Part shown: positions 30,426-33,355 of the stretch, piece by piece
Position numbering within the stretch: the first letter of the stretch is position 1
Layout: the number at the start of each line of letters is the position of its first letter
Source of the DNA: Actinomycetes bacterium
Lineage (GTDB): Bacteria > Actinomycetota > Actinomycetes > JAHEKZ01
DNA length: 36,085 nucleotides
Direction: 5' to 3'
Assembly (NCBI GenBank): GCA_024644345.1
Contig: JAHELE010000014.1
Location: 1 to 36,085 of the forward strand
Translations under genes and position numbers: made by a program
Notes under the pieces: generated by a model
The model's input: only the letters and a program-made list of their open reading frames with translations
Databases searched by the model: none
Told to the model about the DNA's origin: nothing

Positions 30426-30430
30426 ACCCT

Positions 30431-30457
30431 TAAGCCCGTCACCCGAATGGCCGATCC
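30431..30457 (+). promoter_or_regulatory. Sigma-28 (FliA/WhiG)-type promoter of the chemotaxis receptor
   Basis: TAAG at 30431-30434, a 15-bp spacer and GCCGATCC at 30450-30457 match the sigma-28 consensus TAAA-N15-GCCGATAA at 9 of 12 positions. The predicted transcript start is about 40 nt before the receptor ATG, which has AAGGAG upstream. Confidence 0.65.
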
Positions 30458-30502: not shown

Positions 30503-32596
30503 ATGGGTGGACGCTCGTGGCGCCTTGCGGCGCTGAGCCTGGGGCTAGCCATGACCCTGCTCGGCTCTGCCCTGCTCTTCCTCGGGGTACGAGTGTCGTC
30601 GCAGGAAGCCGGTGCTCTCGACCGACGCCTGGGCAACGCCTCCGAGAGTGCCGCCATCGTGCTGTCAGAGTTCTTCGATCGCGCGGTCGGATCCGATCTC
30701 CAGCTGGCCTCCGAGCCCGCCTTCGGTCACGTCTACCGGGCGCCAGGTTCCCTCAAGTCGAAGACCGACGCCAACATCCCCGCCCTCCAGGATGCACAGC
30801 AGAGCCTGTCAGCGATTGAGGACGCCTATCCCGGGGCCGTGAGCGAAGCCTGTTTCATCGACCTGGCCACCGGACGTGAGCTGGCTCGGGTCGTCGAAGG
30901 AAAGGTCGCCGCCCCCGACGATCTCTCGCCGGACGAAACGGGTGCCACGTTCTTCAAGCCGACGTCGGAGCAGCCCGTCGGCGTTCCCTTCCAGTCAAAG
31001 CCCTATGTGTCAGAGGACACCGGTCTGTGGGTGATCTCCACATCCACACTCGTCGCCGTGGATGGCAAGCCGGTTGCATTGGCGCACTTCGAGGTGAGCG
31101 TGGAGAGCCTCCGACAGGCGCTCGCCGCGTCGGGCAGTGATGCGCAGGTTCGGGTCGTCGACTCGCTCAGCGGAGCGGTCATCCTCGATGGTGAGATCCC
31201 GCAACAGCCGAAGGGCAAGCTCGGCAACCCGTCCGACAAGTCGTTCGCGGGTATGCAGCTCACCGCTGCCGGTCAGACAGACCTGGGCGGTGATCGCACC
31301 ACATGGCTGCCGCTACCACCTGGACGGACACTGGCCGCATCCAACGCCAACAACTGGGTCGTCACCGCATCGGCTCCGAGCGTCCAGACGGGGATTGTCG
31401 CCAACCTGTCGCCTCTCATCGTGGCTCTTCTGGCCATCGGCATCCCGCTCACCTTGGCGGGCGTCGTCGGCGCAATCCAGGCACGTAGACGTCGCCGGGA
31501 GGACGAGGTGCGAGTGCGGGCCGAGCGCGACACCTTGGACGCCCGGATGGAGGATCTCTCGCACGCGCTTGCGCTGGCCGCTGCTGGCGACCTGTCCGTG
31601 ACCGTCGATGTGGACCTGGGTGACGAGCGGATGACGGCGCTTGCCCAGGGTTTCGATGCCACCTTGACTCATCTTCGGGCGCTCGTCGCCCAGGCCCAGG
31701 CCAGCGGTGAACGACTCTCGCGATCTGCCACAGAGCTGCGGACAACCGCGGCCCAGCAGGCCTCGTCGTCGGCGGAGCAGTCCACCGCCGTCACCGAGAC
31801 GACAGCGACCGTGGAAGAGCTGGCTGCGACGGCTGCGCAGATCGCCGACACGGCCACCATGGTGGCTGACTCGGCCGGCGAAACCTTGTCCCTGACCGGT
31901 GAAGGCTTGGCAGCCGTCCAGGACTCGGTCGACGCGATCGGCCGAATCACCGACACCGTCGAGACCATCTCGACCAGCTCGGCGGCGCTGGGTGACAAGG
32001 TCAGCGAGATCGGGCGGATCCTGGTGCTCATCGACGAGTTGAGTGAGCAGACGAACCTGCTGGCCCTCAATGCTGCGATCGAGGCGGCCCGAGCCGGTGA
32101 GCACGGACGAGGGTTTGCCGTCGTCGCGGCCGAGGTGCGGAAACTGGCCGAACGGGCGCAGGAGTCGACAGCTCAGATCCAGGGCCTGGTCACGGAGATC
32201 CAGGCGTACACCCAGACCACGGTTCTGGCGTCGGAGGCCGGGGCACGTGAGGCCGGCCGTGGGGTCGAGGTCGCCGGAACAGCCTCCACCGCGCTCGACC
32301 GGATCGCCTCGATGGTGGACTCCACGACGACGGCAGTCTCGGAGATCTCGGTCGCCACGCAGCAGCAGCGGTCAGCGTCTGATCAGGTGGTGCAGGCGAT
32401 GTCGCAGGTGGCCCAGATGTCGCAGGCCTTTGCGGCGGGCTCGCGGCAGACGGCCTCCTCCGCCGAGGAGATCACCGAGCTGGCCAGCGACTTCTCGACG
32501 GCGATCGACCGCTTCGAGGTGTCAGGGTCCGCCCCTTCGGAGGCGCGGCCAGCGGCAGGGGTACACGCAGAAGAGCCCCAAGAAATCTCAAACTAG
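30503..32596 (+). CDS. Methyl-accepting chemotaxis protein
   Basis: This transmembrane chemoreceptor has 697 residues. Membrane segment 1 is at about 8-30. An outer ligand-binding region of about 270 residues looks like a Cache-type sensor (for example [15 protein letters not shown] and [26 protein letters not shown]). Membrane segment 2 is at 303-325. A HAMP-like linker follows, then the signalling helices. The conserved tip that binds CheA/CheW, including [19 protein letters not shown] and [18 protein letters not shown], is at about 510-555. ATG 30503 is used because GTG 30497 overlaps the AAGGAG site. No other chemotaxis or flagellar gene is in the window. The ligand is unknown. Confidence 0.94.
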
Positions 32597-32611
32597 TCCT
32601 AAAGGACTAGT
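32592..32611. repeat. 20-bp inverted repeat overlapping the receptor stop codon
   Basis: ACTAGTCCT-AA-AGGACTAGT has perfect 9-bp arms around a 2-bp centre, and the receptor stop TAG lies inside the left arm. The small centre favours a dimeric regulator site; as RNA it would be an 8-bp hairpin with a 4-nt loop. It overlaps the possible second sigma-28-like promoter. Confidence 0.6.
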
Positions 32612-32627
32612 CCGGACAATCCGAAGT
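32600..32627 (+). promoter_or_regulatory. Possible second sigma-28-like promoter, before the small Trp-rich ORF
   Basis: TAAA at 32600-32603, a 16-bp spacer and TCCGAAGT at 32620-32627 resemble TAAA-N15-GCCGATAA, with an exact -35 and the CCGA core. The transcript would start about 50 nt before the small reading frame at 32687. The spacing is one base longer than ideal. Confidence 0.35.
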
Positions 32628-32686
32628 AGTAGGTACCCCTTCCCAGGGACCCGCAAGACCCACAGCTCCACAGAAGGTCAGGTGTC

Positions 32687-32854
32687 ATGGACTGGCAACG
32701 ATTCGATTGGCCGGCGATGTCCGGCGAACCGGATTCAGACTGGTTCGAGTACCTGGAGCGTCGTGGGTGGACCGTGAGTCCGGTGCCATCAGTGGCCCGG
32801 ATCGGCTCGCGAAGCTACCTGCGATTTCTCGGCTGGCGGGCCCGCTCGGCGTAA
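32687..32854 (+). CDS. Small Trp-rich protein of unknown function (55 aa)
   Basis: An ATG-to-TAA frame of 55 codons fills most of the gap between the receptor and the Nudix gene. The protein starts MDWQRFDWPAMSG, contains DWFEYLERRGWTV and ends RFLGWRARSA. Five of 55 residues are Trp, and the C-terminal third is basic. AGAAGG and AGGTG lie upstream of the ATG, and about three quarters of its codons end in G or C, which fits real coding in this genome. I do not recognise the family. The stop codon lies in the loop of a strong hairpin. It may belong with the receptor if the sigma-28-like site upstream is real. It could also be a chance frame. Confidence 0.5.
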   Translation: MDWQRFDWPAMSGEPDSDWFEYLERRGWTVSPVPSVARIGSRSYLRFLGWRARSA

Positions 32855-32871
32855 GCCGCGCGGGCCCCGCC
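32835..32871 (+). terminator. Long GC hairpin at the end of the small ORF
   Basis: The arm at 32835-32845 (GGCGGGCCCGC) pairs with 32860-32871 (one bulged C). An inner CGGC/GCCG stem closes a GTAA tetraloop at 32851-32854, which contains the TAA stop. This gives about 15 base pairs. No T tract follows, but such hairpins are common 3' ends in high-G+C genomes. Confidence 0.6.
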
Positions 32872-32905: not shown

Positions 32906-33355
32906 GTGGTCCAGGCCGTCCAAGACATCCAGCGCGTGGCCGCCTACGGCCTGGTGCAGCGGGCCGAGCGCCTGCTGCTCGTGCAGCTGACCCAGCGCAC
33001 ACCCGCCGCCGGTGCCTGGTCGCTGCCGGGGGGTGGCATCGACCACGGTGAGCACCCGGCCGATGCCGTAGTGCGCGAGTTGTACGAAGAAACCGGGCTC
33101 AGGGGGCGCGTCGTCGAGCTGCTGGACGTCGACTCGCACTTCCGCGAGCACTACCTCGACCAGGAGGTCCTGGAGCGGTACCACGCCGTCCGCATCCTCT
33201 ACCGCGTGACGGTCGACAGCGACGGCCCTCTCACGGTGATCGACGCGGACGGCAGTTCGGACTCTCCAACCTGGTTCCCGCTCGACGAGGTGAGCTCGTT
33301 GCGGCTGACCCCCATCGCGTCCAGAGGCCTACAGTTCTCCGGTGTCTCTGGCTGA
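32906..33355 (+). CDS. Nudix hydrolase
   Basis: Nudix enzymes cleave nucleoside diphosphates linked to another group. The Nudix box is complete at about residues 43-65: GGIDHGEHPADAVVRELYEETGL fits G-x5-E-x7-R-E-U-x-E-E-x-G-U. The flanking strands (AAYGLVQRAERLLLVQL and YHAVRILYRVTV) fit the fold. It is 149 residues long. The exact substrate cannot be told. The start is a GTG with CAGGAT 7 nt before it, one base from the TANNNT leaderless pattern. Its 3' end overlaps the converging small membrane protein gene by 27 bp. Confidence 0.88.
   Translation: MVQAVQDIQRVAAYGLVQRAERLLLVQLTQRTPAAGAWSLPGGGIDHGEHPADAVVRELYEETGLRGRVVELLDVDSHFREHYLDQEVLERYHAVRILYRVTVDSDGPLTVIDADGSSDSPTWFPLDEVSSLRLTPIASRGLQFSGVSG

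Follow-up and report, generated by a model that had tools for sequence, protein, structure and literature searches.

A conserved 55-codon gene behind a WhiG/FliA-type promoter in one genus of uncultured Actinomycetes

The locus

In the window (the whole stretch of DNA analysed, 36,085 nt), a short frame with its own upstream and downstream elements lies between a chemotaxis receptor gene and a Nudix hydrolase gene. The features of this region are as follows:

30429..30455, + strand, WhiG/FliA-type site of the receptor gene
30503..32596, + strand, methyl-accepting chemotaxis protein gene, upstream neighbour (Pfam MCPsignal, E 2.6e-39)
32592..32611, no strand, perfect 20-bp inverted repeat ACTAGTCCT-AA-AGGACTAGT around the -35 element, possible operator
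32599..32627, + strand, WhiG/FliA-type promoter C-TAAA-N16-TCCGAAGT, conserved in 4/4 orthologues
32628..32686, + strand, 5' leader with a conserved GTACCCCTTCCC block and the ribosome-binding region (from the orthologue alignment)
32687..32854, + strand, gene for a 55-residue Trp-rich protein of predicted beta-alpha-beta-beta fold, ATG to TAA
32831..32875, + strand, GC-rich hairpin over the last codons and the stop, lacking a T run, likely 3' end of the transcript
32906..33355, + strand, Nudix hydrolase gene, downstream neighbour (Pfam NUDIX, E 1.3e-21)

An earlier note, made from the letters of this DNA, had described a 20-bp inverted repeat, a second sigma-28-like element (TAAA-N16-TCCGAAGT), a 55-codon frame with five Trp, a plausible ribosome-binding site and a strong hairpin whose loop holds the stop codon. 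The perfect repeat is found at 32592-32611, the promoter element at 32600-32627 and the frame, with its five Trp, at 32687-32854; at least five Trp in 55 residues has a probability of 4e-5 given the Trp frequency of five window proteins. The hairpin is also there (z -4.0). As ribosome-binding sites we consider GAAGG (32673-32677) and AGGTG (32680-32684), plausible without being striking; the AGAAGG of the window genome reads AGAAAG in two relatives (G002 and G003).

Conservation and selection

The genome of the window is called G000 here, and three relatives of the same genus G001, G002 and G003. In a whole-genome search of 60 genomes, orthologues of the frame were found in 4/4 genomes of the genus (its own and the three relatives), the proteins of the relatives being 91, 93 and 85% identical to that of the window, and nothing convincing was found in the other 56. 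A separate search of contigs returned the same three relatives, each a metagenome-assembled record named 'Actinomycetes bacterium'. The four sequences align over 168 nt with no indels and share the position of the stop codon, which is TAA in two and TGA in two. Codon position 3 accounts for 18 of the 30 variable columns (binomial p 0.0025), and the six orthologue pairs have dN/dS values of 0.12, 0.17, 0.31, 0.10, 0.24 and 0.57, the last (G001-G002) being based on 5.5 synonymous changes. By this comparison of orthologues, the small gene is under purifying selection. Broken or unselected frames in relatives had been named in advance as evidence against the gene; the homologue search and Ka/Ks analysis returned intact orthologues with the pattern of selection instead.

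Open frames are abundant in high-GC DNA, and a spurious frame of such DNA was considered as an alternative. It is refuted by the selection pattern across the four orthologues, and the kept stop, the confident predicted fold and the conserved promoter also speak against it, leaving it a negligible probability. The frame is almost certainly a real gene, as judged from its conservation.

The promoter, the leader and a probable transcription unit

The -35 TAAA (32600-32603) is separated by 16 nt from the -10 TCCGAAGT (32620-32627). All four orthologues have CTAAAG, containing the -35 TAAA of the sigma-28 class, and the pattern CTNAAG-N14-16-KCCGAW that defines the promoter set of the genus is present upstream of the orthologue in 4/4 genomes, with a chance expectation of about 0.0006 per 120 bp on one strand. 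In PMC8325347, WhiG sites were accepted with at most two mismatches in all to TAAA/GCCGATAA, a rule that the small-gene element fails, its -10 TCCGAAGT differing from GCCGATAA at four positions (by eye). At the pilA site of this genome, whose -10 is GCCGAAGT, the mismatches number three for the -10 and one for the -35 (also by eye). Judged from these sites, the local consensus departs from the classical one.

The arms of the inverted repeat match at 9/9 positions in the window and at 8/9, 7/9 and 6/9 in the relatives, so the perfect palindrome is a local feature; its CTAAAG core is invariant across the genomes of the genus. The same repeat can also be read as a direct repeat ACTAGTCC (32592-32599 and 32606-32613), with copies agreeing at 8/8 positions in the window and at 7/8, 7/8 and 6/8 in the relatives. 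The longer pattern CTAAAGNACTAGNCCGG has one exact match per genome in 4/4 genomes, always at the small gene, and fewer matches than its control when mismatches are allowed, so we did not find a wider operator set.

From the end of the promoter motif to the ATG there are 61, 68, 61 and 79 nt in the four genomes. The hairpin at the other end (-39.6 kcal/mol) has the stop TAA inside a GTAA loop, and a similar one is found in 4/4 orthologues (z -4.0, -4.0, -3.7 and -2.3) with loop GUAA or GUGA, which we take to be of the GNRA type. In the alignment of the four, 97% of cells are paired and two-sided changes are zero. As a strong hairpin without a T run it does not qualify as a Rho-independent terminator, and terminator scoring of the + strand gave no terminator-like site at the small gene; because the T run is absent, the hairpin is only a presumed 3' end of the transcript.

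Conservation among the orthologues drops sharply on either side of the promoter-to-hairpin stretch. In G003 a HipA-like gene replaces the receptor upstream, and despite this neighbour the genome keeps CTAAAG...TCCGAA, the TACCCCTTCCC leader block, the ribosome-binding region, the frame and the hairpin. This suggests that the small gene is its own transcription unit, and the persistence of promoter, leader, frame and hairpin in G003 supports the complete small unit that the earlier note had proposed.

The earlier note had also raised the possibility that the protein is a small partner of the receptor. In G000, G001 and G002 the upstream neighbour is indeed the receptor gene, which has a conserved WhiG-type site to itself in all three; by motif it is co-regulated with the small gene, yet a separate unit. 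The association holds in 3/4 genomes. Since G003, with its HipA-like neighbour, retains the promoter and the gene, the small gene is not tied to the receptor, which is absent from that 3.3-kb contig; in the G002 assembly, moreover, the small gene is intact beside a broken receptor frame. A fixed partnership is unsupported, and we consider a dedicated receptor partner improbable. The G002 receptor orthologue (contig C93) is split across frames, either as a pseudogene or through an assembly error.

The candidate WhiG regulon

With an initial loose pattern, CTNAR-N14-16-KCCGAW, sites clustered on a single contig of the window genome, which carries type IV pilus genes. Pfam domains on this contig include T2SSE with MshEN (PilB-like), a second T2SSE (PilT-like), T2SSF (PilC-like), an N_methyl pilin, a prepilin peptidase, PilM and PilO, with PilN slightly under the cut-off, and a roadblock protein is encoded there too. 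The stricter CTNAAG-N14-16-KCCGAW has 88 sites in the four genomes against 31 for the control (the pattern read backwards), and 29 against 7 in G000. The surroundings of 22 of these 29 sites were inspected, leaving out those on C29, C101, C125, C150, C151 and C192 and the one at C60:28064. A recognised target follows 12 of the 22: five genes of the pil cluster (roadblock, PilB-, PilT-, PilA- and PilM-like), two GGDEF genes (C97), a prepilin-like gene (C155), a TadE gene (C164), a 74-aa frame (C10), the window receptor and the small gene. The 10 others are mostly intragenic, or else are at a contig end or have nothing recognisable downstream. As far as shared motifs tell, the small gene has a promoter of the same WhiG/FliA-type set as the genes for type IV pili, diguanylate cyclases, a TadE protein and the receptor.

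Beside the pil genes of G000 (C28, 2221-4926) lie genes for a roadblock and a DUF4388 protein, as well as a P-loop frame resembling a small GTPase (by eye), a neighbourhood reminiscent of polarity or conservon modules.

The probable sigma factor, RsiG and a search for flagellar markers

A WhiG orthologue scores above the curated cut-off of TIGR02479 (FliA_WhiG) in 3/4 genomes, and no such protein was found above it in G003, which is 73% complete. The G000 protein matches the solved WhiG (PDB 6pfj_A) with an E of 1.8e-118, and WhiG is very probably the sigma factor of the small gene. A search for the c-di-GMP motif E-X3-S-X2-R-X3-Q-X3-D found twin sites 300 nt apart in 4/4 genomes, along with other matches of the pattern near control level. 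In G000 both motifs are carried by the RsiG frame, which matches AmfC/RsiG (PDB 6pfj_T) with an E of 2.8e-39. All four genomes also have another RsiG-like frame, in which a single c-di-GMP motif is intact (G000:C123, around 71250).

Flagellin (Flagellin_N) and FlhA (FHIPEP) were each found in 0/4 genomes by searches that were positive in four known flagellates, and CheW was found in 4/4. With no flagellin or FlhA found, motility here means pili, and a flagellar link of the small gene was rejected. The association with the motility machinery raised in the earlier note thus stands for a WhiG-type regulon of type IV pili and chemotaxis, given the promoter set, and falls for flagella. The genus is apparently an uncultured, pilus-bearing and non-flagellated one, on the evidence of its gene content.

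The protein

The AlphaFold2 model of the G000 sequence (mean pLDDT 89.2) has a strand at residues 2-9, a helix at 17-25 and strands at 35-39 and 42-51, three of the five models being poorer (68, 57 and 47). For G002, the same secondary structure was obtained with a mean pLDDT of 89.0 and all five models between 87.5 and 89.0. The protein is therefore confidently predicted to be a beta-alpha-beta-beta domain.

Searches of Pfam, NCBIfam, PHROGs and PDB sequences gave no family for the protein. A 4-row profile run against 393 genomes of the class and 396 of the phylum found no convincing homologue outside the genus; the matches there are short (18-21 bits), with 6 and 3 non-genus genomes at E <=0.01, and are taken as chance. 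Phages, plasmids and viral contigs had no homologue either. Among the libraries and genomes searched, the protein is found in one genus only. A match to VpsR (best E 0.021, over 24 residues of the window protein; 4/4 near-identical members) was discarded as too weak. By structure, Foldseek against the PDB gave nothing significant (best E 0.44), and the best VIA-align score, Z 4.8 for GFRP, is below the level at which the tool advises trust. Of the matches listed in literature searches on WhiG/sigma-28, pili and small proteins, none concerns this gene by its title or the start of its abstract.

We also considered whether the protein belongs, as a divergent member, to the small GW-motif domains of the DUF4177/DUF1737 kind. 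These domains resemble the protein in length, in the GW motif (seen by eye against 29 DUF4177-like proteins) and, weakly, in structure: DUF1737 phage proteins are at ranks 2 and 4 of the BFVD matches (probability 0.96 and 0.85; E 0.12 and 0.23), with a phage protein of DUF4177 further down, at rank 30. These structural matches fall short of significance, and neither DUF4177 nor DUF1737 is named among the listed PDB structure matches. Support from sequence profiles is absent, since hhalign against the 29 DUF4177-like proteins gives a probability of 0.2% over 10 columns and the DUF4177 profile (PF13783) is matched by none of the four members at E up to 10, subject to the filters of HMMER. Homology to DUF4177 was rejected on the hhalign result, and membership of this broader kind seems unlikely.

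A transcript with a second function?

Synonymous sites of the small gene have changed slowly: in the three genome pairs for which there are data, their divergence is 2.4 to 4.6 times lower than in the neighbouring genes. The values are 0.40 against 1.19 for Nudix in G000-G003 (Fisher p 0.003), 0.41 against 1.89 for Nudix in G001-G003 (p 1e-4) and 0.22 against 0.52 and 0.71 for the neighbours in G000-G001 (p 0.05 for Nudix and 0.0015 for the receptor). Because of this slow synonymous evolution, we keep in view that the RNA of about 240 nt, from the WhiG promoter to the hairpin, may act as a regulatory or structured RNA besides encoding the peptide. The conserved leader block and hairpin agree with it, as does the whole transcript, which folds better than its dinucleotide shuffles (z -3.0). 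Pairs of the G000 fold have also been kept more often than random synonymous change would keep them, with 4, 10 and 50 of 500 simulations breaking as few; as three tests with a common reference sequence, these are not independent. Against codon-permuted nulls, however, the frame is ordinary (z -0.40, -0.13, -0.73 and +0.13), and strong RNA structure within it is unsupported. Two-sided change occurs at 2 of 83 consensus pairs, none inside the hairpin, and Rfam gave no match at the gathering level and five at chance level. All these comparisons use a sample of four sequences, and on balance we hold a dual-function RNA to be rather doubtful. We would give equally low odds to a lineage-specific transcript of the c-di-GMP/RsiG/WhiG switch, one among several encoding short orphan proteins behind WhiG-type promoters, in which RNA and protein both act on pilus motility.

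Proposed role and related systems

We suggest, with a probability of roughly 0.7, that the locus is a single-gene unit of the WhiG regulon, encoding a genus-specific soluble protein of 55 residues that is co-expressed with pilus, diguanylate cyclase and receptor genes. By analogy with published RsiG-WhiG work, a fall in c-di-GMP would make the anti-sigma RsiG release WhiG, and free WhiG would then transcribe the small gene together with those of the type IV pilus, the diguanylate cyclases and the chemotaxis receptor. As no family, homologue outside the genus or significant fold match was found, the function can be inferred from regulation alone, by which the protein is probably a soluble modulator of pili or of pilus signalling. 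A more specific and tentative proposal, for which we would not claim even odds, is a small cytoplasmic binding adaptor whose conserved Trp- and Arg-rich surface might let it tune the pilus motor or the chemosensory or c-di-GMP input to that motor.

Its small size, genus-wide conservation and own WhiG-type promoter would also suit an analogue of FlgM, expressed from a promoter of the sigma factor and feeding back on WhiG or RsiG. An RsiG orthologue already exists in the genus, though, and the compact beta-alpha-beta-beta fold predicted here is unlike FlgM and RsiG, both of which are helical anti-sigmas, so that we see little room for such a regulator.

The soluble pilus modulator that we favour would belong to a circuit with known counterparts. 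PMC8325347 describes how, in Rubrobacter, type IV pili and several DGC/PDE genes are under the control of WhiG, itself held by RsiG and c-di-GMP. Orthologues of both WhiG and RsiG are present here as there, and WhiG-type promoters precede GGDEF genes and occur within the pil cluster. Apparently the present genus uses the RsiG-WhiG switch too, differing from the system of PMC8325347 in the two c-di-GMP motifs of its RsiG, and its candidate targets add a chemotaxis receptor, a TadE gene and the small protein ('chemotaxis' does not occur in the main text of that paper). In Actinoplanes, according to PMC8325347, a FliA/WhiG-type sigma factor controls the pili and flagella of zoospores and RsiG is lacking; the likeness is that a flagellar-type sigma factor drives pili in an actinomycete, whereas our genus has RsiG and its flagellar markers were not found. 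These comparisons suggest that, in non-flagellated uncultured Actinomycetes, pili and with them a chemotaxis receptor are driven by an RsiG-WhiG circuit of the twin-motif type. The present locus adds a small protein unmatched in the libraries searched to a sigma regulon under c-di-GMP control that is known in Rubrobacter and Streptomyces, and short orphan frames behind WhiG-type promoters are tractable candidates for small motility regulators.

Two other short frames were noticed near WhiG-type sites. In G003 (C218) and G002 (C85), a conserved frame of 67 residues with no Pfam match starts about 10 nt after the -10, in a leaderless-like arrangement. In G000 (C10) and G001 (C20), a conserved His/Cys-rich frame of 74 residues, with only a weak match to UPF0547 (E 0.072), starts 9 nt after the -10.
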